A DNA stretch of 50,044 nt from Deltaproteobacteria bacterium. GTDB taxonomy: Bacteria > Desulfobacterota > DSM-4660 > Desulfatiglandales > HGW-15. Shown piece by piece: positions 5,116 through 46,534 of this stretch. The notes beneath the pieces were generated by a model, which had not been told where the DNA came from, did not search any database, and worked only from the letters and a program-made list of their open reading frames with translations. Position 1 is the first letter of the stretch, and each line of letters begins with the position of its first letter. The translations under genes and the position numbers were made by a program. The stretch spans positions 1 through 50,044 of the forward strand of contig JAFGFM010000042.1 in the NCBI GenBank assembly GCA_016931115.1, written 5' to 3'.

Positions 5116-5571
5116 ATGTTTATTATGAATAAAATAATGGTCTTTACACTAATTCTATTTATTATATGTTCAACCCTGTTTGCCCAGACTGACACAGGCA
5201 AATCAAATACTGCTTCCGGTACCTTTACAAGGATTTTAAAAAATCAGGATTATGGCCTCTCAATAACAAGGCTTATCCTTGACCTGGGAGAGGGTTCAGC
5301 AATAAATAAAAATGATATCAGGGAAGATTTATTTATTGTCTCACTTTCACCTGATACAGATAAATCTGCTGTAAGAGTAAAAGGGATTGCTGTTACCGAT
5401 AAATTCGGTGATGCAGTTGATTCAGACCGATATGTTACTATTGATCTCGATTTTGGCCTTGATGCAGATATGTCAATGGGCTCTTCATATATTGTTACTC
5501 TAAATCAGGATCTGGGTATTTTTATAAAAGGGTCTCAATTTATTCAGAAGGGTAGAACCATAAGAAAATAG
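5116..5571 (+). CDS. Secreted orphan Ig-like domain protein, possibly a truncated esterase
   Basis: This 151-residue protein has an N-terminal signal peptide ending in STLFAQ. The rest (ITRLILDLGEGSAINKND..., AVTDKFGDAVDSDRYVTIDL) matches the pattern I associate with the Ig-like N-terminal domain of bacterial EstA-type esterases, where a beta sandwich precedes an alpha/beta hydrolase. Here the gene stops after the beta domain, and no GxSxG hydrolase frame follows in the next 400 bp, so it is either a free-standing domain or what remains of a larger gene. An alternative start is the ATG at 5125. The family assignment is inferred. Confidence 0.5.
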   Translation: MFIMNKIMVFTLILFIICSTLFAQTDTGKSNTASGTFTRILKNQDYGLSITRLILDLGEGSAINKNDIREDLFIVSLSPDTDKSAVRVKGIAVTDKFGDAVDSDRYVTIDLDFGLDADMSMGSSYIVTLNQDLGIFIKGSQFIQKGRTIRK

Positions 5572-5651
5572 TTTTTAAAAAGATTTGCTGGCTTCTGAAT
5601 AAGAATCATAGGCCTTTGTTTATCTAACCTGCCTCTCTGCATAAATTTAAC

Positions 5652-5680
5652 TTGACACATAAAGGGCATTTCCCTATAAA
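5652..5680 (+). promoter_or_regulatory. Strong predicted promoter upstream of the TonB-dependent receptor
   Basis: TTGACA (5652-5657) and TATAAA (5675-5680) are separated by exactly 17 bases. If used for the receptor gene at 5995 the transcript would carry an untranslated leader of about 300 nt. I see no recognised riboswitch consensus in that leader; it is rich in T runs. Confidence 0.55.
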
Positions 5681-5994
5681 AATTTGGTCAAATAGTCTTT
5701 TCTTACAAGAAGCAAAAAAAAATTTCTAAAAGGATGTTTTTTATCTGGCCATACTTGTTGAATCACTCTCTTAAGGCAGGTTGGCAGATATAGCAGTTTT
5801 ACTTTAATAGTTTTTTGCATCACCTTTGTTTCAGTAATTCATTTTTTAGTTTTCAGATTTACCCTGTTTTTCAGTCGCATTGCGGCTTTTTAATAGGTCT
5901 TTTAATCTCCATTTTATGGTCATTTTCAGAGGGTGGCCATGCCAGTGGGTTTTAAAAGGCCATATAACCTAACTTTTTTATCAGGGGGGATTTT

Positions 5995-8568
5995 ATGAAA
6001 GCATTAAACCGGATTACCTTGTTCAAACACATTTTGTTAATTTTACCTGCCTTAAGCCTGCTTTTTTTCTGCGGGACAGCATTTGGGCAGGAAGAAAAAA
6101 AGGCTGCTGAAGAGGAATTCACACTTGAAGAGATAGTGGTAACAGCAGAATTCCGTGAAAAGGGATTACAGTCCACACCTCTATCTATAACCGCTGTTAA
6201 CGCTGATACGCTTGAGATGAGAAACCAAACCAACCTTGCAGAGATATCCATGCAGGCACCCAATGTTTCATTAAGGCCAGGGAACGCCTCTTATGGAAGC
6301 TCGCTTGTCGCCTACGTTAGAGGGGTTGGTCAGACCGACTTTAACCCGTCTGTAGAGGCTGGTGTAGGTATTTATGTTGATGATGTGTATTACTCAACCA
6401 TTACCGGAAATATTCTTGACCTTGTTGATCTTGAAAGGGTTGAGATCCTGCGCGGTCCACAGGGAACCCTTGCCGGTCGTAATGCTATCGGCGGCGCTAT
6501 TAAGTTGTTTTCTAAAAAGCCTGATGATCAAAACGAAGGTTTTTTATCTCTGACAATGGGAGATTTTGGCAGAATTGATCTTAGAGGTGCAACCGATTTT
6601 ACAATTACAGATAAGCTTTTTGCGCGTATATCAGGCGCCTCTCGTAATAAAGACGGTTATGTAAAAAGTTATGATTATGCCTGTTACAATAACCTTTCGG
6701 CACCAGGTACTGCTGGCGGATTACCAACCTATGTTTCAATGCCACGTGAGTGTGAGATTGCAAAAGAGGGCGGTCAGAGTTATACGGCAGGGCGATTGGC
6801 ATTGCGCTATGTCCCGAATGATAATTTTGAAATAAATTTTTCAACAAATATAGTGAGGGACAAGTCAGAAGCACAGCCCAATGTCCTGGTTGCTGCAAGG
6901 GATAATTATAGATCGAGTATTTTTAACGAAACAAACCCGACTCCTTCCGGTGCCATGGTTCCGATCTATTATGATAACGGGAATATATGGGACGGGGAGA
7001 TGCAGATCGGGTGGGCTGGCCAATATGATCCTGGTGTTGATATTGGATACGATAGCCGATTCGTTACTGGCGGCACCTATATGAACTATTCAACCTATAT
7101 GGATGACGGCAAAAGTACGCCGGATGCGGCTTTTCAGGGCGGCAACCCTGGCCAGGATATTAGTATTTATAAACCCACAACCGTACCGAGGATTAATTAC
7201 CTTGATTCAGAGGATTATAACCTTAGTTTCGATTGGCGCATATCTGAGGATGTGTCTCTGAAATCTATCACTTCTTACCGAGAGTACACGAACACATTTG
7301 GGGATGACGCAGACGGCGCTCCGCTTGCATTGCAGCAATTGCTTCAGAGGATGGTGCATGACCAGTGGACACAGGAAGTTCGTCTCAATGCCGGGCTTTT
7401 TGATGGCTTTGCAGATACCACCATTGGAATCTTTTATCTTGATCAGCAGACCGATGAGGATGCACGTGTAGACATTAACTATTCTGCGCTTGATTTCGCC
7501 CATGGTCCTGATACTGTACCGGCAAAAAGCAAGGCAGCGTATGGCCAGGCTGTCCTTCATTTAACGGATCTCTCAAATCTGACCCTTGGCCTGCGCTATT
7601 CAGAGGATGAAAAGACTTATACCTTCCAGCGCCATAACCCTGATGGGTCAGCAGTTCAGCCACCAGCAGGTTTTTTTATTATGGCCGGGAACCCTTCAAA
7701 TAGCGGGGTTTTTGGAGTTAATGATCTGTCAAGCCCTTCATCCAGCGAACGCTGGGACTGGCGCGCGGCTTTTGACTATAAGTTTACTGAAAAAATAATG
7801 GGCTACGCCCAGATAGCAACAGGTTACAAGGCAGGCGGGAGTAATGCCCGTCCATTTTATCCGGGCCAGATACACGCCATTGATCCTGAAGAACTAACTA
7901 ACTATGAGATTGGTGTAAAAAGCACCCTGTTTGATCAACTCCGTTTGAATGCCTCTGTGTTTTATAATGATTATAAGGATATCCAGCTGCCTGTTAACAG
8001 GTGTGTATGGGCTCCCGGCGAGGAACTCCCCTGCGCAGCTCAGACAAATGTGGGGGATGCAGAGGTTAAGGGTTTTGAACTTGAGGGTGTATGGCGGCCA
8101 AACACAGAATTTTTGGTTGATTTTTCCTATGCCTATCTTGACTTTGAATATACAAAGATAGATGAAACCCTGGCAGATCCATCTGTGGGCGCAACTGTTA
8201 CCCTTGATATGACCACTCCTTATACGCCTGAAAATAAATTCAGCATTGGCGCGCAGTACAGGTTTGACCTCGGTAACATGGGAGACCTTACTCCCCGCAT
8301 CGATTATTCATATCAGAGCAAGACCTATTCAACGGCAGTAAACACGCCTTTGAATAAAATAGATAGTTATGGCCTGGCCAATGCACGCCTCACATGGAGA
8401 TCAGAGGATATTAAATGGCAGGCGAGCCTGGAAGTAACAAATATTACAGATGAGTATTATTACCTGACAATATACGATCTGTATGATGCTGCTGGCTATA
8501 TAAGTGGTCAGCCAGGACACCCGAGGGAATGGGCTCTTACAATCAAACGTACATGGTATTTTGATTAA
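5995..8568 (+). CDS. TonB-dependent outer-membrane receptor
   Basis: This 857-residue outer-membrane beta-barrel would import a large or scarce substrate using TonB energy. A signal peptide ends near residue 32 (FCGTAFGQ). The TonB box EEIVVTAE follows near residue 44, then a plug domain with YVRGVGQTDFNP, VDDVYYS and VEILRGPQGTLAGRNAIGGAI, all typical of plug domains. The barrel ends in an aromatic-rich segment (KRTWYFD). The sequence style resembles receptors of sphingomonad catabolic clusters rather than classical siderophore receptors, but the substrate cannot be assigned. The start has a strong GGGGGG ribosome binding site. No TonB/ExbBD genes lie in the window. A clear terminator follows at 8581-8616. 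Confidence 0.93.
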   Translation: MKALNRITLFKHILLILPALSLLFFCGTAFGQEEKKAAEEEFTLEEIVVTAEFREKGLQSTPLSITAVNADTLEMRNQTNLAEISMQAPNVSLRPGNASYGSSLVAYVRGVGQTDFNPSVEAGVGIYVDDVYYSTITGNILDLVDLERVEILRGPQGTLAGRNAIGGAIKLFSKKPDDQNEGFLSLTMGDFGRIDLRGATDFTITDKLFARISGASRNKDGYVKSYDYACYNNLSAPGTAGGLPTYVSMPRECEIAKEGGQSYTAGRLALRYVPNDNFEINFSTNIVRDKSEAQPNVLVAARDNYRSSIFNETNPTPSGAMVPIYYDNGNIWDGEMQIGWAGQYDPGVDIGYDSRFVTGGTYMNYSTYMDDGKSTPDAAFQGGNPGQDISIYKPTTVPRINYLDSEDYNLSFDWRISEDVSLKSITSYREYTNTFGDDADGAPLALQQLLQRMVHDQWTQEVRLNAGLFDGFADTTIGIFYLDQQTDEDARVDINYSALDFAHGPDTVPAKSKAAYGQAVLHLTDLSNLTLGLRYSEDEKTYTFQRHNPDGSAVQPPAGFFIMAGNPSNSGVFGVNDLSSPSSSERWDWRAAFDYKFTEKIMGYAQIATGYKAGGSNARPFYPGQIHAIDPEELTNYEIGVKSTLFDQLRLNASVFYNDYKDIQLPVNRCVWAPGEELPCAAQTNVGDAEVKGFELEGVWRPNTEFLVDFSYAYLDFEYTKIDETLADPSVGATVTLDMTTPYTPENKFSIGAQYRFDLGNMGDLTPRIDYSYQSKTYSTAVNTPLNKIDSYGLANARLTWRSEDIKWQASLEVTNITDEYYYLTIYDLYDAAGYISGQPGHPREWALTIKRTWYFD

Positions 8569-8580
8569 TATTTTTAAGTA

Positions 8581-8616
8581 AAAAAAGCGGGGGTAACTAA
8601 TTACCCCCGCTTTTTT
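8581..8616. terminator. Bidirectional rho-independent terminator
   Basis: The stem AAAAAAGCGGGGGTAA pairs perfectly with TTACCCCCGCTTTTTT around the 4-base loop CTAA. It lies between the convergent receptor gene and the UroD-like gene and would terminate both. Confidence 0.93.
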
Positions 8617-8658
8617 ATATTCTGGTTCTGAGGTTTTTGCAGGGTCAGGATAAACACC

Positions 8659-9678
8659 CTACCTGTAATACTGTTTGCTCAGCTTTTCCGCCTCATCAAC
8701 AATAACCGAGTTTATCCTCTGTACATCAGGGTCTTTAAAATTTAGAGATTTTACACCGCCATTAAACATGAATCCACCATCAGCTGCAAGCATATCAAAG
8801 GTCTTTTTGACCTCATTTCTAACCTCTTCCTCATCAAATGCAGGCCATGTGTCAGGCATATAGTATTCAAAACCGCCATTAATGGCAAGACTGCGCCCGA
8901 ACCTCTTTTTAATGGCAGGCAGGTCATTCATGGTCTGGGCAGGGTCCCATACTGCAACACCTATCTCTACCATAGAGGGCAGCAGTTTTTCGCATTTACC
9001 ACAGTTATGGTAGAAAATCGGTATTCCTGCATCCCTTGCAATATCAAGACATTTTTTATACCTGGGCACAAGCAGTTCTTCAAACAGCGCCGGGGATATA
9101 AATGAATTCATCTTGGTGGCTGTATCGTCAAGAAGATAGTAGCCATCAGGTTTATAATAGTGGACAATATTTTTTGTGATATAAAGTGCATGCTCAAGCA
9201 TGTGATCAAACAGCGCCTCAACCTCTTCAGGCTCCTCATATAATGCCATAAGGGCCTGTGTAAAACCCATCATGCCCACAAACTGCTGAAAAAGATCTGC
9301 AAATCCGCTTATGGTAAGAGATGTTACATCAGGGTCTTTTATATACTTAGCCCAGTCCGCCTTTGCAGCGGCCTCCCAGTCAAACCCTGAATAATCAGGG
9401 GCCTTTATTACATCCCTCCATTTTGTAATATCGGTGAGAATAAAATCACTCGCCTTTGGCATTGCTGTAAAATCTACTGCACCGCTCACAACAAAGGGTA
9501 CACCCCAGGGATCAAAACCGCCCTTTGGGCCGCGAAATTCACCTATTATAGCAGGGTCACAGATCGCCATAAGGGGTGGATCATTAAATGATTTTTTAGA
9601 TACAACGGGCACATACTCAGGCATTTCACCCCTGGCCACCCGCAAAAAATTTTCCTTTTCTGTCAAATGTACTGCCAT
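8659..9678 (-). CDS. Uroporphyrinogen decarboxylase/MtaA-CmuA-type protein
   Basis: This 339-residue protein belongs to the URO-D superfamily, which includes haem-pathway decarboxylases and zinc-dependent cobamide:CoM methyltransferases (MtaA, CmuA). The HNCGKC motif near residue 223 gives the His-x-Cys zinc-ligand pattern of the methyltransferase branch. The N-terminal Arg-rich substrate motif of true HemE is not evident, so haem synthesis is unlikely. A methyl-transfer or demethylation role is an inference. GGAGG lies just before the ATG at 9678. It is convergent with the receptor gene and shares its terminator. No corrinoid protein is encoded nearby. Confidence 0.8.
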   Translation of the reverse strand: MAVHLTEKENFLRVARGEMPEYVPVVSKKSFNDPPLMAICDPAIIGEFRGPKGGFDPWGVPFVVSGAVDFTAMPKASDFILTDITKWRDVIKAPDYSGFDWEAAAKADWAKYIKDPDVTSLTISGFADLFQQFVGMMGFTQALMALYEEPEEVEALFDHMLEHALYITKNIVHYYKPDGYYLLDDTATKMNSFISPALFEELLVPRYKKCLDIARDAGIPIFYHNCGKCEKLLPSMVEIGVAVWDPAQTMNDLPAIKKRFGRSLAINGGFEYYMPDTWPAFDEEEVRNEVKKTFDMLAADGGFMFNGGVKSLNFKDPDVQRINSVIVDEAEKLSKQYYR

Positions 9679-9801
9679 TAAAACCTCCAGGTAAACTACT
9701 TTTATTTACAACATAATACTATCGAGTATAATTCAATCTCTTGATAACACACCTGTTCACACAAAAAAAGCCAATAATATTCAAATAACACTGCCACTGC
9801 T

Positions 9802-10467
9802 TTACTTTTCAAGATTTGAAATAAAGCTGTTTGATGTCGCTATTGAGTCATTCATCTTTGCAATCAGTTTGTCTATCTCCCCCTTTAATGTCTTGAATTC
9901 AATGCGCAAAGAACCGATTGCCTGAGCATTAAGATTGTGTTTCAGATACAGCACATTGTCGCGGAATGTACGCAGAACCGGGGCCATGCTGGATTCAGCC
10001 TTGATCATGCTTTGAAGCATTTTATTATACTGTTCCTTTGTTTTAAGCAACTGGGTTTTACTGGATTTTTTTAGCTCAACGCTTTTATATAATTCAAGCT
10101 CCTCTTCCCATTCCCTGAAAAGGGCATCAGCAACAGATTTTACCTTGTTTATACGATCAGTAACATTATTTGCTGCTACTTCGCTCTCTTCATACTCCGA
10201 GTTGAGCTTTTCATAGGCTGTTTTCAGGTTTGTGTTATCAATTTGTATTACTGAACTGAATTGTTCAAGTGCTGATTTAAACTGGGTCTGGGCCTCTGCC
10301 TGGGCATCCCTGGCATCCTCAACCCGGTCAATTAGGATATCCCTTTTATGTATGCCCATCTTTTCCATGGCGCCATAGTATGCAGTGGAACAGCCATTTA
10401 AGATGGAAATAAGAAGAATAAAAAATAAAAAATATACTGCCAGTTTTTGGGATTCTATTCTATTCAT
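9802..10467 (-). CDS. DUF2959 family lipoprotein
   Basis: This 221-residue protein has a lipoprotein signal (LLISILNGC, lipobox Cys26). It then follows the recognisable DUF2959 pattern: YYGAMEKMGIHKRDILIDRVEDARDAQ, QFKSALEQFSSV and a long helical, probably coiled-coil body. The predicted place is the periplasmic side of a membrane. The function of the family is not known to me. It reads in the same direction as the UroD-like gene downstream but 123 bp away, so joint transcription is possible. Confidence 0.85.
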   Translation of the reverse strand: MNRIESQKLAVYFLFFILLISILNGCSTAYYGAMEKMGIHKRDILIDRVEDARDAQAEAQTQFKSALEQFSSVIQIDNTNLKTAYEKLNSEYEESEVAANNVTDRINKVKSVADALFREWEEELELYKSVELKKSSKTQLLKTKEQYNKMLQSMIKAESSMAPVLRTFRDNVLYLKHNLNAQAIGSLRIEFKTLKGEIDKLIAKMNDSIATSNSFISNLEK

Positions 10468-35274: not shown

Positions 35275-35356
35275 CAAAGAAAAAGAAAAAAACATTTTGC
35301 CTGTTTCATGTTTTTAGTGGTAATACAAATCAAAAAGCCTGACCTATAAAAACACA
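35275..35356. repeat. Dispersed ~76-bp repeat, copy 2
   Basis: Near-identical to 681-757, with small changes such as CATGTTTTTAG for CATGATTTTAG and an extra AAAAG at the left. It begins about 85 bp after the DUF429-like gene. Nearby, GACAGC/GCTGTC (35222-35239) forms a small hairpin. Confidence 0.75.
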
Positions 35357-35385
35357 AAAAGCCATGATATTGACTTTTGATTATG

Positions 35386-35427
35386 CCATTTACCGATTTT
35401 GGCAACGTTGCCAAAATCGGTAAATGG
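35386..35427. repeat. 42-bp perfect palindrome upstream of the cas operon
   Basis: The left half, centred before base 35407, ends GATTTTGGCAAC and the right half begins GTTGCCAAAATC; all 21 base pairs match with no spacer. It lies 219 bp before the fossil cas3 start and 368 bp before cas3. It could be an operator, a cruciform or part of a small mobile element. Confidence 0.9.
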
Positions 35428-35463
35428 GTTTGAAATAAAAAATATTTTCACCCTGAATCAGCT

Positions 35464-35501
35464 ATTTGGGGATTTTGGCAATATTGCTCATTTCCCCAAA
35501 T
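35464..35501. repeat. Second, imperfect palindrome of the same core
   Basis: Arms of 19 bases around the centre 35482/35483 match at 15 positions. The left arm contains GATTTTGGCAAT, nearly the core of the perfect palindrome, whose centre is 76 bp upstream. Confidence 0.65.
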
Positions 35502-35645
35502 GCTAAAAAATGCAGCCTGTTTTTTCATAAATATTTAACGGTAGTTTAATATGTAGCTATTATTTTTACCATTCATGCTGGATGGTATTGGTTCCATGAT
35601 GTCATTAGAAGTTCTTGATAGGAACATGGCTTTTGGTGAGTTCAT

Positions 35646-35774
35646 ATGAGTTAAGAATATTATGCGCATAACATACAAGCATTAGAAGAACATCTTCATG
35701 GTGTTGCGGAGCTTGCTAAAAAAGATGCGGAAAAGATTGGGATGGGTAATTATGGAGAATTGCTTTGGGCCTGA
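35646..35774 (+). pseudogene. Fossil 5' end of an earlier cas3 gene
   Basis: Reading ATG AGT from 35646 gives a TAA stop as third codon. The same frame then continues for 39 codons as EYYAHNIQALEEHLHGVAEL...GELLWA to a TGA at 35772. The order YYAH, then L-EEHL, then VAELA is the standard start of the Cas3 HD domain, in which the first His and the EH motif are conserved. The intact cas3 begins 22 bp later with its own, quite different N-terminus, so this is not simply its upstream extension. GGTGAG lies before the fossil ATG. I read it as the remnant of a replaced cas3. Confidence 0.75.
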
Positions 35775-35795
35775 ACGGTTTTGAAAAGGTGATAA

Positions 35796-38009
35796 ATGGA
35801 ATTTTATGCTGATGGAAATAAGAGGCAGAAGCTTATTACACATATTGTCGGCGTGAGGAATAATGCAGCTTTATTCACCAAAGATATTTGTTGTGAATCT
35901 TGGGGCGCATTATTAGGTGACTGGCATGATTTGGGAAAATTTATGGAAGCTTTTCAGAAGTATATGCTTGAAGATGAAGCGCGTATTGAACATGCTATCG
36001 TGGGAGGTAGATATGCAACAGATCAATTTAATGATCCTCTTCGTAAACTGGCCTTGCAGTTTACTATTTCTTGTCACCATACCGGACTGCAAAATAGTGA
36101 AACTCTCAGAAAACGATTAGTCAACGCGGCACAATTGGTATGCGATGCTATCAAAAATGTACCGGATGATTTGTTGGATAGAAAGCTTCCTGAGTGGCCA
36201 GCTTGGTTGATCCCTCCATCTACAACTGCTGAAGAAAAGGAAATAGATGTCTGGAAGAGGTGCTTGGAATTTTGGATACGAATGCTTCATTCCTGTCTGG
36301 TTGATGCTGATTGGCTTGATGCTGAGAAACGAGATCCCGATGCACCGAAAAGACCTGAGTTCCTTTCAATTGAAAAACTTAGAGATAAACTGGATGGATA
36401 TATTGATGCAAAAGTTTCAGATGCCACAAAGCACAATTGGACACCAGTAAATGCTCAAAGAAAAAATGTACTCGATGCTTGCAGGGAGTCTGCAAAAACT
36501 AAAACAGGATATTTTTCATTAACAGTTCCTACAGGAGGTGGGAAAACACTTTCAGGAATGTCCTTTGCTCTAAATCATGCAGTAGAAAATAAAATGAAAC
36601 GTGTGATTGTTGTCATCCCATATACAAGCATTATCGAACAAAATGCATCTGTTTATGCAGAGGTTCTTGGTCAAGAAAACATAATTGAGCATCACTCAAA
36701 TATTGATCCTGAAAAAGATACAGTAAGAAATCACCTAGCAGCAGAGAATTGGGATGCGCCTATCATTGTCACAACGAATGTTCAATTTTTTGAATCATTG
36801 TATGCAAACAAAAACTCCAGACTTCGGAAACTTCATAACATTTCCAGAAGCGTCATATTTTTAGACGAAGTACAATCACTACCTCCGGTGTTGTTGTATC
36901 CGATATTGGATGCAATACGGGAATTACGTGATCATTATGGTTGCTCTATCGTCCTTTCGACGGCAACTCAACCAGCCTTGAAAAAACGCAAATCATTTGA
37001 TTGCGGGTTTGATGCAGTGAAAGAAATCATCCCGGATGCAATGAAGCTGTCGAAAGATTTGGCTCGTGTGAATATTGAATGGGAAACGATGAATGCGATA
37101 GAATATCGAGATATTTCAGAACGTATCCTAAAAGAAAATATACAAAGAGTTTTAGTAGTTACATATAAACGTAAAGATGCCCGAGCGCTTGCGGGGTTAC
37201 TACCCGATGATACTTATCATCTTTCGGCATCAATGTGTCCGTCGCACCGGAAAGATACTCTTAATAAAGTAAAAGAAGAGTTGATGAAAAATAAATCCTC
37301 GACAGTTCGGTTAGTGAGTACTCAATTAATAGAAGCGGGTGTAGATATTGATTTCCCTGTCGTTTTTAGAGCGTTAGCAGGGCTGGACAGTATTTCGCAG
37401 ACAGCAGGGCGGTGTAACCGTGAAGGTAAAAATGTTAATGGAGGTCGCCTAATTGTGTTTCGCGCACCAACAGAACCTCCTGTGGGAGTTTTACGTTTGG
37501 GAAAGGCTATTACTGAAAGTATACTTAATTCCAGTGCGAGTGAATTTGACGGCGTTTTACGGGACAAAGATGGTTTTTTGGATTTAACGTCCCCCGCAAT
37601 TTATGATACATACTTTCGCTTGCTTTATTCTGGCGTTCAACTAGATGGGGCAGGGGTTCAAAATGCCCGCACTAACTTCGATTTTCCAGAAGTTGCTAAG
37701 CGTTTCTGTATGATCGATAGCGCTACATATCCCGTAGTTGTTCCTTACAAAAATGGGTATGACATACTGGATGGTGTCCACGTTAAATTCAAACCATCGC
37801 GGGATGATTTCAGATCACTCCAGCCATTTATTGTCCAGATATACTTCCATGAACTTGAGGTACTGAATAATATAGGCGCACTTGGGTCCATACATGAGAA
37901 ATCATTCTATTATTTAACAACGCCATATGAACGACTTTATGATGATCGTTTTGGTTTAGTGATATCGGAAGAGAATCTTTTCCCTGATTATTCAAAGCTT
38001 AATGTATGA
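35796..38009 (+). CDS. cas3: Cas3 helicase-nuclease, type I-C
   Basis: This 737-residue effector unwinds and degrades DNA marked by Cascade. The N-terminal HD nuclease domain has His16, WHDLGK (His44-Asp45), His66 and the pair His94-His95. The SF2 helicase has Walker A PTGGGKT (245-251), DEVQ (357-360, in place of DEVH), STATQPAL, then STQLIEAGVDI and the arginine motif QTAGRCNREG. HD-then-helicase order and length fit type I-C. AAAAGGTG precedes the ATG. It overlaps the cas5c region by ATGA. Local G+C looks lower than in cas1 and cas2. Confidence 0.95.
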   Translation: MEFYADGNKRQKLITHIVGVRNNAALFTKDICCESWGALLGDWHDLGKFMEAFQKYMLEDEARIEHAIVGGRYATDQFNDPLRKLALQFTISCHHTGLQNSETLRKRLVNAAQLVCDAIKNVPDDLLDRKLPEWPAWLIPPSTTAEEKEIDVWKRCLEFWIRMLHSCLVDADWLDAEKRDPDAPKRPEFLSIEKLRDKLDGYIDAKVSDATKHNWTPVNAQRKNVLDACRESAKTKTGYFSLTVPTGGGKTLSGMSFALNHAVENKMKRVIVVIPYTSIIEQNASVYAEVLGQENIIEHHSNIDPEKDTVRNHLAAENWDAPIIVTTNVQFFESLYANKNSRLRKLHNISRSVIFLDEVQSLPPVLLYPILDAIRELRDHYGCSIVLSTATQPALKKRKSFDCGFDAVKEIIPDAMKLSKDLARVNIEWETMNAIEYRDISERILKENIQRVLVVTYKRKDARALAGLLPDDTYHLSASMCPSHRKDTLNKVKEELMKNKSSTVRLVSTQLIEAGVDIDFPVVFRALAGLDSISQTAGRCNREGKNVNGGRLIVFRAPTEPPVGVLRLGKAITESILNSSASEFDGVLRDKDGFLDLTSPAIYDTYFRLLYSGVQLDGAGVQNARTNFDFPEVAKRFCMIDSATYPVVVPYKNGYDILDGVHVKFKPSRDDFRSLQPFIVQIYFHELEVLNNIGALGSIHEKSFYYLTTPYERLYDDRFGLVISEENLFPDYSKLNV

Positions 38010-38026: not shown

Positions 38027-38752
38027 ATGAACAAAAGGAGAGGCCCGACATTGAGTCTTCGGGCAAAAGGCCCGCTTGCTATGTTTACACGGCCTGAACT
38101 TAAAACAGAACGGGTGAGTTATGAGGTTCCAACTCCTTCTTCTGTACGTGGAATATTTGAAGCCATTTGCTGGAAGCCCGCTATTCAATGGCATGTGGAG
38201 CGTATTTATGTATTTAATGCAATATCCTTTACCGCGATAAAACGGAATGAACTGAATGGCAAAGCCATACCGCCTTCAAAGCAGATGATGGATCGCGGTG
38301 TGAGAGAATTTACGTATGGGATATATGGCATAAATATAGAAGATGAACAGACGCGAGCACAGCGGAACACATTGGCCTTACGAAATGTGGACTATCAGTT
38401 CGAGGCATTTTTTACGCTTACTGACAAAGCTGGGCCAGATGATAATATCTACAAATTTATCGATATGTTCACCCGTCGGGTGGATAATGGACAGCATTTT
38501 TACCAGCCCTATTTCGGTTGTCGGGAGTGTATTGCTCAAGTTCTATCCCCCATAGAATCACCTGAAGCGCACGCGATCTCCATATCCAAAGAACTTGGAA
38601 TTATGCTTTGGGATGTTGAATTTGGAGGAGACGAGACAAAGAAGAACACGCCTCTTTTTTTCAACGCAAAAATCGAAAATGGAAAAATTGATATCCCATT
38701 GTATCCAATCGGTCGAGAGGAGGTGTCGTATGATATTGAAAGCGCTTTTTGA
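38027..38752 (+). CDS. cas5c: Cas5c, crRNA-processing endoribonuclease/Cascade subunit
   Basis: This 241-residue RAMP protein in type I-C replaces Cas6: it cuts the repeat and then stays bound at the crRNA 5' handle. The early AMFTRPELKTERVSYEVPTPSSVRG is the typical Cas5 N-terminal ferredoxin-like motif with basic and Tyr/Lys residues of the active region. The start at 38027 is chosen for AAAGGAGG at 38015-38022; an ATG at 38006 overlaps the cas3 stop and would add seven residues. Its end overlaps the cas8c start by 23 bp. Confidence 0.92.
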   Translation: MNKRRGPTLSLRAKGPLAMFTRPELKTERVSYEVPTPSSVRGIFEAICWKPAIQWHVERIYVFNAISFTAIKRNELNGKAIPPSKQMMDRGVREFTYGIYGINIEDEQTRAQRNTLALRNVDYQFEAFFTLTDKAGPDDNIYKFIDMFTRRVDNGQHFYQPYFGCRECIAQVLSPIESPEAHAISISKELGIMLWDVEFGGDETKKNTPLFFNAKIENGKIDIPLYPIGREEVSYDIESAF

Positions 38753-40721
38753 TTTGGCACAAAGAGAAGACCTTTTACCAGATCCTGATTTTGAAATTAA
38801 ACCTATCTCTTGGGTTATTCGAGTGGGTGACAACGCACGCTTTCTAAGTATTGAACCGCTGAAACAGACAGAAAAGCTCACTGTGGGCTCAAAGAAAAAG
38901 CCGAAAATGTTTGGCACGCCAAAAACAGTTCCTAAGCAACAACCAAGTCGTTCCGGGAAAGACCCTGAGCCTGAATTTCTAGTCGATAATCCATTGTATG
39001 CTTTGGGTAAATCAATACCTTCAAATAAATATAACATTTCTGTGTGCAAAAAGCGTTTGCGTATGTTTGCAGCAAAAATAATCTTGTGCGGACATAAGAC
39101 AAAAGATGTTGGTGCGGTGAGTGTTGGCCGCTTTCTGAGAGATGTAAATAGAGGCAGCCTTCAGATTGAAACACCTCAAGAGATGAAGGGGAATGATTTA
39201 ATTGCGTTCTCTTATCAGATGGAAGAAACATTTGTACATGAGAGACCGGGTATTGTTGAATATTGGAGAAAGCTCAAGGCAGATAACCAAAAATCGAAAG
39301 ACGATATCATATGCCTAATTACTGGTGATTTCTGCACACCTGCCAAAAAGCATAAGAAACTAAAAAACGTTCCTCAAAAGAAAATTGGCGACATAGCATT
39401 GGCACCCTGTAACCAACCTGCTTTTGAAAGTTATGGATGGGAAAAAGGTGAGAATGCTGTAATAGGAGAGAAATCTTCCGATTTCGCAATGACTGCATTA
39501 AATCGCCTTTTGCATCCCAACTACCCTGATCCGCAAGATCCGAATCTTACCTTATCAAAGCAAAATGTACATTTAAGCTCAGATACAGTGGTTTGTTATT
39601 GGACACGGAATAAAAGTATATTATCTGATTCTTTTGGTCTAGCCATTGAGGTTGATGAAGAAAAGATCGAAACAAAGCCAGCACAGGTTGCGGAAATGTA
39701 TAAAAGCCTTTGGAAAGGCATCCCCTATAAATTAGACAAGCCCGACCAGTTCTATTCATTGGTTCTTTCTGGTGGACAAGGGCGGGCAACAATACGGGAT
39801 TGGATAGAGTCGAACACCCAGCATGTCGTGGATAGTCTGGCGCAATATTTTGCAGACTTGAGAATTGAGCGCTGCTGTCCTCCCCCCAAAAAAGGTAAAC
39901 ATCCCGAAAGCTTTTCGCTGCCTTTATTACTTGAATCGTTAGCTGACCCAAAAGACCGCAGGAAAGAAGGCATTCCTTCTGCCATCAGTGCACAGTTCTA
40001 CCGTGCATCAATTGACAATAGATTATTATTCCCACAGCCAGCATTTAGCCGGGCAATTTATCGTTATAGAGCTGAACTGGGTAAGGAAAGCGATGAAAAA
40101 AATGGATGGGTGCACAAGAATTGGAATGATGCCCGATCAGCAATCATTAAAGCGTATTTAAATCGAAAATATCGAAAAGAATTTAAAAAAAAGGAGGTGT
40201 TAGAAAAAATGAATCCAAATTGTGAGGATAAAGGGTATTTGCTTGGACAACTTATGTCCGTACTTGAAAAATTGCAAACAGAGGCTTTAGGGAGTGTTAA
40301 TGCGAGTATTATTGATCGCTATTTTCCAGGAGCATCTGCCGCTCCGAAGAGCGTTTTTGGCTTTTTACTTAGAAACGCACGGCACCATGCACGCAAAGCT
40401 AAAGATGAGTCAAAAAACAAAGGGCAAATATTTAATCTGGAAAGATTAATTGATCAAATTTGTAGCCAATTTGATGTTTCCCTGAATAAAACAGAAGATC
40501 CCAAAACTGTTTATACGAATGGATTCCCTTCATATCTTTCTCAAGAGCAACAGGGAATGTTTGTTTTAGGATACCATCAAATGCGCAAATGGCTATGGAT
40601 GACTAGCGATGAGAGGGTTATCTGGAATAAAGCGCATTCTGATGCCGCTCGTGCTTATTTGTGGAGCAAGAAGGAAAATGATTTAGGAAATTCAACTGTA
40701 GAAAAAGGAGAAAACCAATGA
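38730..40721 (+). CDS. cas8c: Cas8c (Csd1), large Cascade subunit
   Basis: This 663-residue large subunit recognises the PAM in type I-C Cascade. It begins MILKALFDLAQREDLLPDPD, typical of Csd1, and its last third (VFGFLLRNARHHARK ... SYLSQEQQGMFVLGYHQMR) is the Csd1 C-terminus. The start at 38730 follows GAGAGGAGG; a longer frame would lie wholly within cas5c. It contains an internal start for Cas11c at 40209. It overlaps cas7c by ATGA. Confidence 0.93.
   Translation: MILKALFDLAQREDLLPDPDFEIKPISWVIRVGDNARFLSIEPLKQTEKLTVGSKKKPKMFGTPKTVPKQQPSRSGKDPEPEFLVDNPLYALGKSIPSNKYNISVCKKRLRMFAAKIILCGHKTKDVGAVSVGRFLRDVNRGSLQIETPQEMKGNDLIAFSYQMEETFVHERPGIVEYWRKLKADNQKSKDDIICLITGDFCTPAKKHKKLKNVPQKKIGDIALAPCNQPAFESYGWEKGENAVIGEKSSDFAMTALNRLLHPNYPDPQDPNLTLSKQNVHLSSDTVVCYWTRNKSILSDSFGLAIEVDEEKIETKPAQVAEMYKSLWKGIPYKLDKPDQFYSLVLSGGQGRATIRDWIESNTQHVVDSLAQYFADLRIERCCPPPKKGKHPESFSLPLLLESLADPKDRRKEGIPSAISAQFYRASIDNRLLFPQPAFSRAIYRYRAELGKESDEKNGWVHKNWNDARSAIIKAYLNRKYRKEFKKKEVLEKMNPNCEDKGYLLGQLMSVLEKLQTEALGSVNASIIDRYFPGASAAPKSVFGFLLRNARHHARKAKDESKNKGQIFNLERLIDQICSQFDVSLNKTEDPKTVYTNGFPSYLSQEQQGMFVLGYHQMRKWLWMTSDERVIWNKAHSDAARAYLWSKKENDLGNSTVEKGENQ
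40209..40721 (+). CDS. cas11c: Cas11c small subunit from an internal start in cas8c
   Basis: Type I-C systems are known to translate a Cas11 small subunit from inside cas8c. Here AAGGAGGTG (40191-40199) is followed by an in-frame ATG at 40209, Met494 of Cas8c, giving a 170-residue product MNPNCEDKGYLLGQLMSVLE and onward, mostly helical. The ribosome binding site is among the strongest in the locus, has no other use in mid-gene and sits where the internal start is expected. Cas11c would form part of the belly of Cascade. Confidence 0.8.
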   Translation: MNPNCEDKGYLLGQLMSVLEKLQTEALGSVNASIIDRYFPGASAAPKSVFGFLLRNARHHARKAKDESKNKGQIFNLERLIDQICSQFDVSLNKTEDPKTVYTNGFPSYLSQEQQGMFVLGYHQMRKWLWMTSDERVIWNKAHSDAARAYLWSKKENDLGNSTVEKGENQ

Positions 40722-41848
40722 GTGGAGCTATTAAAAATCGTTATGAGTTTATTTTTCTGTTTGATGTAAAAAATGGAAATCCCAATGGAGACCCTGATGC
40801 AGGGAATGCGCCTCGTCAGGACTACGAAACAGGGAAAGGGTTAGTTACTGATGTTTGTCTTAAGCGGAAAATTAGAAACTATGTTGATATTACGAAAAAT
40901 AACCAGGCTCCTTACGAAATTCATGTGAGAGAAGGAGCTTTTCTTTCCGAACATCATAAACGTGCTCATCTGGCAATTGAAAATGAAACTATACAGTTGG
41001 CAGTTCCTATGGATTTGGTAGATGAATTCAAAGCATATGAATCATATCCAGATGGAATTACTTTCTCAGATCAAAATGCGCGACCATGCTTGATCTTGTC
41101 TTTAGCTGGATTGGAAGAAACTGAGAAACAGGTGAAAGATCTAAAGGAGAAAAAGAAAAAAGAAGATACTGAAAACAAGAAGCTGATATCGCCTGCTGCA
41201 AAAGCAAAACTTCGTGAACTGTTTATTGACTCAAAGGAAAAAAAAGCGGCTCAGTGGATGTGTAAAAATTTTTTTGATGTTCGCACGTTTGGAGCAGTTA
41301 TGTCCACTGGAGATATGCGTTGCGGACAGATTAGAGGGCCTGTTCAATTTGGATTTGCGGAAAGCGTTGATTCAATTATTGGGAAAGAAATACCAATGTC
41401 ACGGACGGCCGCTGTAAGCGTCGATGACCCTGATCAAAAAGGTTTAGGTGCTCGAAAGTCAATTGTCCCTTATGGGTTGTATCGGGTTCATGGATATATT
41501 TCTGCACATTTAGCAAGTCAAACGAACTTTACAGAGGATGATTTGGCAATGCTGTGGTCTGCCCTGTTGAATATGTTTGATCAAGATCCCGCTGCTGCTC
41601 GAACTGGGATGCATGCACAGAAGTTGATCGTTTTTAAACATATCGGGCTTGAAATAGAAGAAAAGCAAAAAGAAAACCAAGCAAAATTAGGATGCGCACC
41701 AGCTCAAAAATTATTTGAAATGGTAAATGTTGAATTAATAAATAAAGATAAGCCCCCACGTTCTTTTGATGATTATAAAATGAACGACTTTTCGGATATA
41801 AAATCTAAGGCACTTGCTTTGGGCGTTGAAGCAATTGAAATGCTGTAG
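40718..41848 (+). CDS. cas7c: Cas7c (Csd2), Cascade backbone, with inserted charged segment
   Basis: This 376-residue RAMP protein coats the crRNA. Conserved features are FLFDVKNGNPNGDPDAGNAPR near the N-terminus, GLVTDVCLKRKIRNY, and NFFDVRTFGAVMSTG (185-198) followed by GQIRGPVQ. The family is normally about 290 residues; the extra length lies mostly at about residues 80-175, including a Lys/Glu-rich helix at 132-156. The C-terminus (PRSFDDYKMNDFSD) differs from the usual family end. ATGA overlap with cas8c and AAAAGGAG upstream show coupling. Confidence 0.93.
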   Translation: MSGAIKNRYEFIFLFDVKNGNPNGDPDAGNAPRQDYETGKGLVTDVCLKRKIRNYVDITKNNQAPYEIHVREGAFLSEHHKRAHLAIENETIQLAVPMDLVDEFKAYESYPDGITFSDQNARPCLILSLAGLEETEKQVKDLKEKKKKEDTENKKLISPAAKAKLRELFIDSKEKKAAQWMCKNFFDVRTFGAVMSTGDMRCGQIRGPVQFGFAESVDSIIGKEIPMSRTAAVSVDDPDQKGLGARKSIVPYGLYRVHGYISAHLASQTNFTEDDLAMLWSALLNMFDQDPAAARTGMHAQKLIVFKHIGLEIEEKQKENQAKLGCAPAQKLFEMVNVELINKDKPPRSFDDYKMNDFSDIKSKALALGVEAIEML

Positions 41849-41897: not shown

Positions 41898-42053
41898 GTA
41901 AAAAGAAAAACCGGTCCTGAAAAATCAGCAAGAGAATTCGCTGATTATGAGGTTCTGATTGACAGGAATAATCTTCCTTCAGGAGTTACTATTGAAGAGA
42001 AAGTTTAGCAATATCGGTAAAAATGCCAGCGCTGGCTTTTTTACCGGAATAGC
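41898..42053 (+). pseudogene. Fossil 3' end of an earlier cas7c gene
   Basis: Starting just after an in-frame TAG at 41895, the frame reads VKRKTGPEKSAREFADYEVL then IDRNNLPSGVTIEEK. This matches, from memory of the family, the usual Cas7c C-terminus (V-x-RK-x-G ... F-x-DYEV-x-x-D-x-x-x-LP-x-GVT). It has no start codon or ribosome binding site. A run of four A after GTTATT-type codons carries the frame past the expected end to a stop at 42051; removing one A would give EEKV and a stop at once, like the family end. It is clearly not part of the intact cas7c, which stops at 41848. Confidence 0.7.
42016..42047. terminator. 32-bp near-perfect palindrome after cas7c
   Basis: CGGTAAAAATGCCAGC is followed directly by GCTGGCTTTTTTACCG; 15 of 16 pairs match. 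The T run in the right arm and the place downstream of the effector genes suggest a terminator or a processing hairpin separating the effector and adaptation halves. Confidence 0.65.
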
Positions 42054-42146
42054 GATGAGGGAGCTTGTAACATTATGAAATAATAGGGAATAGCTGAAAA
42101 TTAGCTTTTCCTGAATAGCATGTTTTTAGATGGAAACGAGGTAACC

Positions 42147-42731
42147 ATGCACGATCAAAAAGACAATGATTCATTAAAGCTTATCCCGGCACACGGCGGA
42201 TACCGTGAACTCAAGTCTTACCAGATGTCCGAAATTGTTTATGATGCCACTGTGGCCTTTTGTGACAGGTTTATCTCAAAGTTTTCACGCACCCATGACC
42301 AGATGGTGCAGGCAGCTCGCAGCGGTAAGCAGAATATTGCTGAGGGATGCATGGCCTCAGGCACATCAAAAAAGACAGAACTTAAACTCGTGAATGTTGC
42401 GCGAGCAAGCCTTGAGGAATTGCTTCTGGATTATGAAGACTTTCTCAGGCAAAAGGAGTTGCCGCTCTGGGCTAAAGAAAACCCTGTGGCAAAAAAGGTT
42501 AGGGGGCTTTGCTACCAGGAGAATAGGTCTTATAAGACCTATAGGATTTATATTGAAGTTGATTCTGAAGAGGTTGCGGCCAACACCATTGTCTGTGTTA
42601 TCCACCAGACCAACTACCTGCTTGACCAGCAGTTACGAACCCTTGAGAAGGATTTTGTTAATGAGGGCGGTTTTACAGAGCGGCTATACCGTGTAAGGAC
42701 AGAGGCACGTAAATGGAACAAGACCAAATAA
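42147..42731 (+). CDS. Four-helix-bundle protein (S23/bAvd-like, with suffix domain) inside the cas operon
   Basis: This 194-residue helical protein of the 23S rRNA-intervening-sequence/bAvd four-helix group carries the typical KSYQMSEIVYDATVAFCDRFISKF start, then QMVQAARSGKQNIAEGCMAS and LVNVARASLEELLLDYEDFL. A C-terminal extension (TIVCVIHQTNYLLDQQLRTLEKDF) resembles the four-helix-bundle suffix domain. The start at 42147 is preferred for GAGG just upstream. It overlaps the cas4 start by 19 bp, so the two are translationally coupled. It is not a standard type I-C component; a basic pentamer-type bundle could bind nucleic acid or proteins (inference). Confidence 0.8.
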   Translation: MHDQKDNDSLKLIPAHGGYRELKSYQMSEIVYDATVAFCDRFISKFSRTHDQMVQAARSGKQNIAEGCMASGTSKKTELKLVNVARASLEELLLDYEDFLRQKELPLWAKENPVAKKVRGLCYQENRSYKTYRIYIEVDSEEVAANTIVCVIHQTNYLLDQQLRTLEKDFVNEGGFTERLYRVRTEARKWNKTK

Positions 42732-43381
42732 TTTACTCCGAGGATGATCTTTTGCCCCTTTCAGGATTGCAGCATATTATCTTCTGCAAGCGGCAGGCGG
42801 CCCTTATCCACATTGAGCAGGCATGGGCAGAAAACATGCTTGCTGCCGAAGGCAGGGTCATGCATGACAAGGTGCATGAAGGCGGAAGCGAATCAAGGGG
42901 AGATGTCCGGGTTGAATATGCCATGCCTTTACGTTCTTTAAGGTTGGGGTTAATAGCCAAGGCTGATGTTGTTGAATTTCACAGGGTAAATAATCAGGGA
43001 GAAAGTCAGGTGTTAAAATGGCAGCCCTTTCCTGTGGAGTATAAGCATGGTAAGCCTAAAAAAGATAATTCTGATAAGGTGCAGTTATGCGGCCAAGCCA
43101 TATGCCTTGAAGAGATGCTTAATGTCAGGATAGTGCAGGGTGCCCTGTTTTATGGGGCCATCAGGCGGAGAGAGGATGTTATTTTTGATGATGAACTAAG
43201 GCAATTCACCCAGGGTGTGGCAAGGGAGTTCCATGAGCTTATTGCCGGTGGCATTACACCAAAGGCGGTGTATTCAAAAAGATGTGATAACTGCTCCATG
43301 TATGAATTATGCCTGCCAAAGACAGTTGGTAAAAGCCGAAAGATAACAAACTATTTAAAGGACATGGTGATTGAGAAATGA
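42713..43381 (+). CDS. cas4: Cas4 exonuclease
   Basis: This 222-residue RecB-family nuclease with a [4Fe-4S] cluster trims prespacers and checks the PAM in adaptation. Cluster cysteines are Cys25 and the C-terminal Cys191, Cys194 and Cys200 (CDNCSMYELC). Nuclease motifs are His51, Asp84 and PVEYKHGK with Glu109 and Lys111. It overlaps the four-helix gene upstream and cas1 downstream. Confidence 0.93.
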   Translation: MEQDQIIYSEDDLLPLSGLQHIIFCKRQAALIHIEQAWAENMLAAEGRVMHDKVHEGGSESRGDVRVEYAMPLRSLRLGLIAKADVVEFHRVNNQGESQVLKWQPFPVEYKHGKPKKDNSDKVQLCGQAICLEEMLNVRIVQGALFYGAIRRREDVIFDDELRQFTQGVAREFHELIAGGITPKAVYSKRCDNCSMYELCLPKTVGKSRKITNYLKDMVIEK

Positions 43382-44409
43382 AAAAGCATTTGAACACCCT
43401 GTTTGTAACAACCCAGGGGGCTTACCTCAACAAAGAGGGTGAGACAGTGGTTGTGAATGTGGAGAAGGAGGTAAAGCTCAGGCTCCCCATACACACCATT
43501 GGTGGAATCATCTGTTTTGGCAATGTGATGTGCAGCCCTTACCTGCTGGGCTTTTGCGCTGAAAAGGATGTTGCTGTCAGCTTCCTCACTGAAAATGGCA
43601 GGTTCCTTGCCAGGGTTCAGGGGCCTGTATCAGGGAATGTACTCTTGAGAAGAGAACAATACCGAAGGGCGGATAATCCGGAGGCAACAGCTCATATAGT
43701 GAAATCCATATTAACCGGAAAGCTTGCCAACTGCCGGACAGTGCTCAAAAGGGCATTAAGGGATCACCCTGATAAAATTGATGTAGAGGCAGTAAAAGAA
43801 GTTGCAGACAAATTAGGATACTCTCTTGATCGTTTGCAGGAAGATCTCCACCTTGATGTGTTAAGGGGTATTGAAGGCGAGGCTGCAAAGGCATACTTTA
43901 GAGTGTTTGATCATCTGATAATTGCTCAAAAACAGGATTTTTATTTCAGGGAGCGCAACAGGAGGCCGCCTCTTGACCGTGTCAACTGCCTGCTTTCATT
44001 TATCTACACAATAGTGATGCATGATGTGAGGTCTGCCCTTGAGACAACCGGGCTTGACCCGGCAGTAGGTTTTTTGCACAGGGACAGGCCAGGAAGGCCA
44101 GGTCTGGCGCTTGATATGATGGAAGAATTCAGACCATTCTTGGCAGACCGAATGGCTCTATCGCTGATTAATCTCAACCAACTAAGGCCGGAAGGTTTTA
44201 CCACAGTAGAGTCAGGCGCGGTAATCATGGATGATGAAACCAGAAAGACACTGCTTACCACTTATCAGAAGAGAAAACAGGATACCATTGACCACCCCTT
44301 TTTAAATGAAAAGGTGAGTATCGGCATTTTGTTTTATACTCAGGCCCTGCTTATGGCGAGATTCTTACGCGGTGATATAGACGGGTATCCGCCATTTATA
44401 TGGAGGTGA
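43378..44409 (+). CDS. cas1: Cas1 integrase, type I-C
   Basis: This 343-residue integrase inserts new spacers with Cas2. The metal ligands fit Glu166 (GIEGEAAKAYF), His234 (VGFLHRDRPGR) and Asp246 (LALDMMEEFRP). The beta-strand N-terminal domain and helical C-terminal domain have the usual length. It overlaps cas4 by ATGA and is followed at 4 bp by cas2. Confidence 0.96.
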   Translation: MKKHLNTLFVTTQGAYLNKEGETVVVNVEKEVKLRLPIHTIGGIICFGNVMCSPYLLGFCAEKDVAVSFLTENGRFLARVQGPVSGNVLLRREQYRRADNPEATAHIVKSILTGKLANCRTVLKRALRDHPDKIDVEAVKEVADKLGYSLDRLQEDLHLDVLRGIEGEAAKAYFRVFDHLIIAQKQDFYFRERNRRPPLDRVNCLLSFIYTIVMHDVRSALETTGLDPAVGFLHRDRPGRPGLALDMMEEFRPFLADRMALSLINLNQLRPEGFTTVESGAVIMDDETRKTLLTTYQKRKQDTIDHPFLNEKVSIGILFYTQALLMARFLRGDIDGYPPFIWR

Positions 44410-44413
44410 AAGT

Positions 44414-44704
44414 ATGCTTGTGGTGGTTTGTTATGATGTGGATACAACCGACCCTGAAGGGCCTCGCCGGTTAAGGCGTGTCGCAAAGACGTGCAAGGAT
44501 TATGGGCAGAGAGTACAGTTTTCTGTTTTTGAATGCCAGGTCGACCCGGCACAGTGGACAGCGCTTAAACAGAAGCTGATAGATAAAATAGATGAGAATA
44601 CAGACAGCTTGCGGTTTTATTTTTTGGGAGCAAACTGGCGAAACAGGGTGGAGCAGGTGGGGTTGAAAAAATCCTATGACCCTGATGAACCGATGATTGT
44701 TTAA
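44414..44704 (+). CDS. cas2: Cas2, adaptation protein
   Basis: This 96-residue partner of Cas1 has a ferredoxin-like fold. It starts MLVVVCYDVDTTDPEGPRRL with the conserved Asp8, and RVQFSVFEC marks the third strand. GGAGGTG precedes the ATG. The array leader follows. Confidence 0.95.
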   Translation: MLVVVCYDVDTTDPEGPRRLRRVAKTCKDYGQRVQFSVFECQVDPAQWTALKQKLIDKIDENTDSLRFYFLGANWRNRVEQVGLKKSYDPDEPMIV

Positions 44705-44931
44705 TGGCTTTGCGAACCTGTAGCTCAAAAAAAGGGATAATGATGAAAACCCTTGAGGAGCAAGGATCTGAACGGTTTTTATAAGAGAGTGTTTCGCAAG
44801 GGAAAATAGGCTGTAATATTAACTGGTTATTGGTAAGCTCTTTGAAAACTGAATATTTTTTTGCCATTATTTAAAGGGTTCGCAAAATATGGTTGTATAT
44901 TAATGAAATATCAGTAGTTTATAGTTGTACA
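44705..44931 (+). promoter_or_regulatory. CRISPR leader
   Basis: The 227-bp A+T-rich region between cas2 and the first repeat has no gene. Near its end it carries TTTAAAGGGTTCGCAAAATA, similar to the region before the first repeat in other type I-C leaders (from memory). It should hold the array promoter and integration signals. Confidence 0.7.
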
Positions 44932-46534
44932 GTCGCTCCCCCTGCGGGAGCGTGGATTGAAACAGCTTGCCCCTTGTAGCCGCGTTAACGATATAAGCGT
45001 CGCTCCCCCTGCGGGAGCGTGGATTGAAACAAGTGAAACGCCTTGCGATAGGTGGTTTGGTCAGGGTCGCTCCCCCTGCGGGAGCGTGGATTGAAACATT
45101 AATAAAACGGTTGCCCCCTGATATGAGGGCACGTCGCTCCCCCTGCGGGAGCGTGGATTGAAACTCATTATTAGCCCCTGCTAACTGCCTGATTTTGTCG
45201 CTCCCCCTGCGGGAGCGTGGATTGAAACAGAGTTCACTGTTGAGCGTAAAGAAATTATTAAGTCGCTCCCCCTGCGGGAGCGTGGATTGAAACTCACCAT
45301 AGTATGCGCTGTCGCTTGCAAGCTGCAGTCGCTCCCCCTGCGGGAGCGTGGATTGAAACACGTGTTTATGGCTCCCGTGCATGGCCTGTGAAGGTCGCTC
45401 CCCCTGCGGGAGCGTGGATTGAAACTTGCGCTGATTGGCGAGTCAGGGGATACTTTGGCAGTCGCTCCCCCTGCGGGAGCGTGGATTGAAACATTTTCCA
45501 GCATGTGCATGATGTCCCTTAACCGCTGGTCGCTCCCCCTGCGGGAGCGTGGATTGAAACAGATTTCTATATTATAACCGTTAGCACATTCAGGTCGCTC
45601 CCCCTGCGGGAGCGTGGATTGAAACTGGGTCTCCGCCCTCTCCCTGATCCAGCCGAATGGTCGCTCCCCCTGCGGGAGCGTGGATTGAAACTTTTAACCG
45701 CTCCATACAGTTGCGGAATCATCTGTCGCTCCCCCTGCGGGAGCGTGGATTGAAACTTGTCGATATCATTGAAAAGCATGAAGGCTTTAGTCGCTCCCCC
45801 TGCGGGAGCGTGGATTGAAACACCTGATCCGATATGAACTTAATGACCACCTCCGTCGCTCCCCCTGCGGGAGCGTGGATTGAAACATTAAACTGAACGC
45901 CTACTCTGCTTAATGCGCCTAGTCGCTCCCCCTGCGGGAGCGTGGATTGAAACCGGCCATTGCTGCCTTAACACCGCCCAGGGCGCCGGTCGCTCCCCCT
46001 GCGGGAGCGTGGATTGAAACATTAACCTGTCAATACAATTGCCCTTGCCATGATGGTCGCTCCCCCTGCGGGAGCGTGGATTGAAACAATAAACGGTTTG
46101 ATAAGAGCTTGTTTGCCATGTGTCGCTCCCCCTGCGGGAGCGTGGATTGAAACTGATAATATCGCACCTGTAAACCACAAAGGGCGGTCGCTCCCCCTGC
46201 GGGAGCGTGGATTGAAACGCTCCTTAAAGGGCACATATGAGGCCCAAATATTGTCGCTCCCCCTGCGGGAGCGTGGATTGAAACTGGTAATCTGAATCTT
46301 AGCCCAGCCGGTGACATTGGTCGCTCCCCCTGCGGGAGCGTGGATTGAAACCATGATATCCATCCCATATCTTTAGAAATCTGTTGTCGCTCCCCCTGCG
46401 GGAGCGTGGATTGAAACGGACGCTCAAGGTCAAGAGCTATAACTCCAGACGCGTCGCTCCCCCTGCGGGAGCGTGGATTGAAACCCCTTCAGGTTTCAGG
46501 TCTCCACCCTCAGCCTTCGGTCGCTCCCCCTGCG
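44932..46534 (+). CRISPR. Type I-C CRISPR array, 24 full repeats and one truncated
   Basis: The 32-bp repeat begins GTCGCTCCCCCTGCGGGAGC and ends GTGGATTGAAAC; GCTCCC and GGGAGC form the hairpin stem and ATTGAAAC gives the crRNA handle. I counted 24 intact copies starting at 44932, 44999, 45066, 45133 and so on to 46453, and a 25th copy at 46520 cut after 15 bases. The 24 spacers are 32-36 bp, mostly 33-35. All full repeats read identical by eye. The leader is on the cas2 side and the damaged repeat at the far end, as expected for the oldest end. Confidence 0.98.

Follow-up and report, generated by a model that had tools for sequence, protein, structure and literature searches.

Gene remnants at both ends of a probably exchanged effector module in a type I-C CRISPR-Cas locus of a Deltaproteobacteria bacterium

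In situ exchange within CRISPR-Cas loci has been described as a process in which the adaptation genes and the array remain fixed while the effector genes are swapped, often for those of another variant of the same subtype, and it has been linked to the escape from anti-CRISPR proteins (Koonin and Makarova 2019, PMC6452270). The 2025 classification (PMC12669027) estimates such exchange by pairing close Cas1 proteins with distant effectors. In the window analyzed here, meaning the whole stretch of 50,044 nucleotides, a broken cas3 start stands directly before the intact cas3 gene of a type I-C locus. This fossil very probably represents the 5' end of the cas3 gene of a displaced I-C module, the leader, the adaptation block, and the array having been kept while cas3-cas5-cas8-cas7 was exchanged by recombination.

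As judged from NCBIfam and PADLOC profiles, the locus is a complete type I-C CRISPR-Cas system (Table 1). The Cas8c/Csd1 signature, the Cas5c, Cas7c, and Cas1c profiles, an HD-bearing Cas3, and a repeat of the I-C type were all found. For the intact Cas3, the HD profile TIGR01596 scored 77 bits (cut-off 43.45), and the helicase core TIGR01587 reached 100.1 bits, just under its cut-off of 102.45. The 24-base core of the repeat occurs in 24 exact copies within the array, and the repeat consensus is near-identical to that of the other I-C loci examined.

Table 1. Features of the type I-C locus in the window; the terms resident, incoming, and displaced follow the probable exchange of the effector module.
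Feature	Positions	Strand	Evidence and remarks
Operon leader of the resident locus, probably kept; contains two large palindromes	35296..35645	+	82% DNA identity to G001 I-C operon leader (L060 5948-6322), running into the stub to 35669
cas3 5' stub (fossil)	35646..35774	+	Stop at codon 3, 39 open codons, second stop
Remains of the old cas3 (HD-x-G-K codons, decayed), merging into the Shine-Dalgarno-like stretch of the new cas3 (GAAAAGGTGATAA)	35775..35795	+	Five new-type loci aligned with intact relatives
Intact cas3 (737 aa), part of the incoming new-type I-C module	35796..38009	+	PADLOC Cas3c E 6e-196; 84-85% identical in four other species
cas5c	38030..38752	+	TIGR01876 132.5 bits, cut-off 85
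cas8c	38730..40721	+	TIGR01863 269.9 bits, cut-off 218.65; likely start inside longer ORF 38595-40721
cas7c of the incoming module	40718..41848	+	TIGR02589 287 bits, cut-off 182
cas7 3' stub of a displaced canonical I-C module (VKRKTGPEKSAREFADYEVLIDRNNLPSGVTIEEKV, then stop)	41898..42008	+	Last ~36 codons; 51-53% aa identity to canonical Cas7 C-terminus
IVP-like four-helix gene, resident adaptation block	42120..42731	+	92% aa to G001; PF05635 below its cut-off
cas4, resident	42713..43381	+	86% aa to G001
cas1c, resident	43378..44409	+	98% aa to G001; TIGR03640 523 bits, cut-off 385
cas2, resident	44414..44704	+	99% aa to G001
CRISPR array, 32-nt I-C repeat GTCGCTCCCCCTGCGGGAGCGTGGATTGAAAC	44932..46484	+	G001 repeat differs at one base

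Some parts of the locus deserve mention in their own right. The Cas7 of the window has 376 aa, compared to about 280-320 aa in most other I-C Cas7 proteins compared, the extra length apparently being due to an inserted charged segment of at most about 90 aa. The palindromes of the leader lie at 35386-35427 (a perfect 42-bp inverted repeat) and 35464-35501; in the leader of G001, a genome of the same genus, palindromes are located at the same places and differ on both arms, which suggests a conserved hairpin or operator. A small dispersed repeat of ~75 bp, present in five genome copies with 89-100% identity, was found at the edge of the cas leader (35282-35356) and at 683-758. The IVP-like gene (23S rRNA intervening-sequence, four-helix) is common among I-C loci of the phylum (L055, L058, L060, L062, L071, L072, L158, L160, L162, and L163), where it follows cas7 and precedes cas4, often overlapping the latter.

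The fossil translates as MS, a stop, EYYAHNIQALEEHLHGVAELAKKDAEKIGMGNYGELLWA, and a second stop, and corresponds to a decayed Cas3 N-terminus. With the 39-residue stub, searches against Pfam and NCBIfam gave no match and the PDB search gave nothing usable; the PADLOC profiles matched as Cas3c (E 3e-4) and Cas3 (E 8e-3). In the phylum-wide genome search, the top match was the N-terminus of a Cas3 of ~825 aa encoded in genome G368 (E 2e-10), with 69% amino acid identity over 36 ungapped residues and an identical run, KIGMGNYGELL. The similarity extends to the DNA, since positions 35688-35764 are 75% identical, over 77 nt and ungapped, to positions 6143-6219 of L080, which carries this long-type cas3 of G368. 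A second long-type Cas3, from genome G536 (L155), matched the stub at 69% identity; taken together, the ungapped long-type matches range over 65-69%. Furthermore, a Cas3 N-terminus HMM scored the stub at 38 bits, the controls (reverse strand, downstream 1 kb, and ten shuffles) reaching at most 4.1 bits. The first-pass annotation, which had noticed a broken cas3 start at this place, was thus borne out, except that the spacing to the intact gene is 21 bp (35775-35795) and not 22 bp. A sub-threshold mini-stub (MKEFFAHSKENC) was also observed directly 5' of the intact long-type cas3 of G368, at about 6040-6100 of L080.

Being located directly before cas3 in the same orientation, the stub might be taken for a tandem copy of the present gene that has decayed, but this is extremely unlikely: it shares 33% of its residues with the adjacent Cas3 at 17.3 bits, versus 53.5 bits for the Cas3 of L080/G368 and 49.3 bits for that of L155/G536. 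The long-type Cas3 proteins form a clade of their own in an 84-protein tree, apart from the new-type clade, which comprises the Cas3 of the window and those of four other species. The stub, single-copy within its genome, groups with the long type and not with its new-type neighbor, and is therefore no duplicate of the present cas3. Two N-termini only distantly alike and replacement rather than duplication had been proposed from the sequence beforehand, with a closest Cas3 from another branch named as the supporting outcome, and the searches agree with each of these points.

The exact parentage of the stub is limited by its length of only 39 residues. Its first eight codons follow G001 and not the long type; a G001-type gene was discarded as parent of the entire stub, as the DNA similarity stops at codon 8. 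A canonical I-C Cas3 parent (G058-like, as in L025 and L022) was overturned by the ungapped match to the long-type Cas3. The intact HD motif is absent from the stub. Alignment to intact relatives revealed that the 21-bp gap, once shifted by 1 nt, still contains an HD-x-G-K stretch in decayed form, and the fossil therefore extends to a few bases before the new start codon. By its sequence, the stub is a remnant and not an enzyme.

The comparison with G001, the only other genome of the genus compared, which encodes an ordinary I-C operon, indicated how far the replacement reaches. At the DNA level, window and G001 are 82% identical over 35296-35669 (leader and first eight stub codons) and over 42131-46351 (IVP gene, cas4, cas1, cas2, and array), and no comparable BLAST match was obtained across cas3-cas5-cas8-cas7, except for two short stretches of 87 nt at the cas7 start (78%) and 107 nt inside cas3 (71%). 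The proteins follow the same pattern: only 33% (Cas3), 39% (Cas5), 26% (Cas8), and 40% (Cas7) amino acid identity were found for the effectors, versus the high values of the adaptation block (Table 1). Since the flanks are kept and the interior is unrelated at the DNA level, the whole effector module was exchanged, and not cas3 alone; this swap also argues against a tandem duplicate. The shared place is proven for the operon-internal flanks only, DNA beyond the leader not being shared in the G001 stretch examined. It had been suggested that sister strains could reveal the full-length ancestor of the fossil; G001 supplied the shared leader and adaptation genes next to an unrelated effector set, which likewise favors replacement, and no genome was found with this leader before a complete long-type cas3.

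The first-pass annotation had proposed the replacement of an earlier cas3, which is supported but too narrow, as cas5, cas8, and cas7 were exchanged too and a cas7 remnant is left at the right end. Although the fossil itself is just a cas3 piece, it is highly improbable that cas3 alone was replaced beside resident cas5-cas8-cas7 genes: Cas5, Cas8, and Cas7 of the window are 71-85% identical to those of the new-type set in L061, L062, and L063, compared to the 26-40% obtained for G001, and beyond the intact cas7 there is a cas7 tail of foreign origin.

This tail is located between the stop of the intact cas7 (41848) and the IVP gene. It was matched to the canonical Cas7 C-terminus of genome G013 (51% over 39 aa, E 3.6e-9), and the Cas7 C-terminus HMM scored it at 29 bits, reverse-strand and shuffle controls reaching at most 3.6 bits. 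The canonical Cas7 (G013, 53%) is far closer to the stub than the Cas7 of G001 or of the long type; in a loose look, the stub was missed by the G001 and long-type queries and detected with the canonical Cas7. It accordingly comes from a third module, neither the incoming new type nor the long type. Similar canonical cas7 tails were detected directly 3' of the own cas7 in the long-type operons L070, L157, and L161, of which L070 comes from the family to which the window genome belongs.

The left stub (long type) and the right stub (canonical) thus derive from different modules, and therefore two events or a hybrid resident operon are needed. The effector genes would have been exchanged at this locus at least once and probably twice. 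In an earlier round, a long-type module would have displaced a canonical one, leaving the canonical cas7 tail; this round is suggested because long-type loci elsewhere carry the same tail. In the later round, the divergent new-type module would have displaced the long-type one, with the left joint falling at the HD-x-G-K codons of the resident cas3, the front of which would have been left as the stub. This order is the simplest reading that the two stubs suggest. The route would have been either an insertion beside the resident module followed by a deletion or a double crossover, the data favoring neither.

The new-type module was also found in four other species. Across the five species, Cas3, Cas5, Cas8, and Cas7 are 68-95% identical, versus 55-76% for the comparable adaptation proteins, and since the effectors are closer than the adaptation proteins, the effector module moved unaccompanied by the adaptation genes. 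All five new-type loci share a common joint, in which HD-x-G-K-like codons are followed by GGGAGATAAATGG, or by GGTGATAAATGG in the window. The stub types preceding this joint vary: the long type is found in the window, and a canonical G058-like N-terminus in L025 (open) and L022 (broken), of which only the last 23 residues are left in L023 and almost nothing in L024. Two explanations fit: the joint is carried along with the module, with crossovers in the conserved HD-motif codons, or a joint at this place arose more than once.

The same five loci bear on the question of whether the stub is kept for a function, be it that of a leader peptide, of translational coupling, or of an RNA element that controls the new cas3. 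In L025, the open stub frame runs over the new start codon, and the joint sequence gives the new cas3 a good Shine-Dalgarno-like stretch (AAGG). A conserved peptide or coupling function is nevertheless very unlikely because the window stub stops at codon 3, and others have lost the start codon (L022, which has no in-register start and an internal stop) or nearly all of their length (L023 and L024); stub length also varies widely among loci. Most likely, the stub is decaying and non-functional, and the Shine-Dalgarno role is a reason why the last bases before the new cas3 may be kept.

The prevalence of such stubs was surveyed by running the Cas3 N-terminus HMM over the 1-kb upstream regions of 89 cas3 genes of the phylum. 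Stubs were found at 14 distinct loci, with scores from 11 to 94 bits. A gene cut by a contig end and a second copy of the L081 locus gave one more hit each and were set aside; none of the controls (reverse strand, 1 kb downstream, and ten shuffles each) exceeded 4.1 bits. The best match of every surveyed stub was another Cas3 than the downstream gene. Long-type or new-type cas3 genes were preceded by a stub in 11 of 24 cases, versus 3 of 57 for all others (Fisher p 4e-5), fraction and p-value being indicative only, since sampling followed similarity to two Cas3 types instead of being random, and closely related rows are non-independent. The G335 locus was fetched through its stub, and its omission strengthens the contrast (p 1e-5). 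In new-type loci, the stubs extend as far as the HD motif, whereas their end points at other loci fall before or after it. An assembly or binning artefact joining two cas operons might be considered for a draft of 240 contigs, and most of the surveyed loci are draft genomes or MAGs, but the same joint in five species from separate projects and stubs at 14 loci render it barely credible.

One genome may illustrate how an exchange proceeds. In G568, a single-contig genome of 8 Mb, two complete and different I-C effector modules stand in tandem with one cas4-cas1-cas2 (L154 4374-16377, minus strand), in the order canonical cas3-cas5-cas8-cas7, divergent cas3-cas5-cas8-cas7, and cas4-cas1-cas2. 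This arrangement is plausible as an intermediate of exchange, and a deletion between the two cas3 genes would yield a stub before an intact cas3. In plasmid searches, only weak matches were obtained, and none in a scan of viral contigs.

Other loci showed related arrangements. Truncated extra copies of the IVP gene, cas4, or cas1 beside intact ones were observed at L058 11421-11733, L072 6297-6470, L161 10141-10377, and L066 1927-3201, representing scars that other I-C loci carry in their adaptation blocks. In L065 (G066, 5270-9949), an adaptation block of the same IVP-cas4-cas1-cas2 type is linked to a distant effector set that includes a Cas3, an arrangement that suggests exchange across more distant type I sets.

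As a tentative and rather doubtful generalization, I-C effector sets might be exchangeable cassettes without adaptation genes of their own, docking via the conserved 5' end (HD motif) of the resident cas3 and the conserved 3' end of the resident cas7 as homology arms. The stubs would then be products, and perhaps tools, of repeated exchange, and several effector generations could be read at one locus.

The exchange process itself is already known, while its readable double-ended record and the recurrence of this record appear to be new; no report of cas3 front or cas7 tail stubs as exchange scars was found in the open-access literature. Exchange has until now been inferred from gene trees. The stubs make effector exchange mappable: from them, the recombination joints can be located and the displaced module identified, and an order of events is suggested. 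Scanning for cas3 front and cas7 tail stubs could measure the frequency of exchange and the joint sequences.

Compared to the canonical I-C operon cas3-cas5-cas8-cas7-cas4-cas1-cas2, the locus of the window shares the gene order, the I-C profiles, and the repeat. It differs in its divergent effectors, with Cas3 at most about 45% and Cas8 about 28% identical to most other I-C sets (39% for the Cas8 of G661), and in being flanked by foreign stubs, from a cas3 on the left and from a cas7 on the right. A stop-bearing cas3 fragment is also a feature of degraded cas loci with cas pseudogenes; in contrast to these, everything else in the present locus is intact, and the fragment stems from another operon than the intact genes. 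In line with the criterion of the 2025 classification (PMC12669027), window and G001 pair a close Cas1 (98%) with distant effectors (Cas8 26%). Whereas known cases of in situ exchange were inferred from discordant gene relationships, orphan gene ends at both ends of the exchanged segment here locate the joints and suggest in which order the events occurred, and they are found again at other loci.
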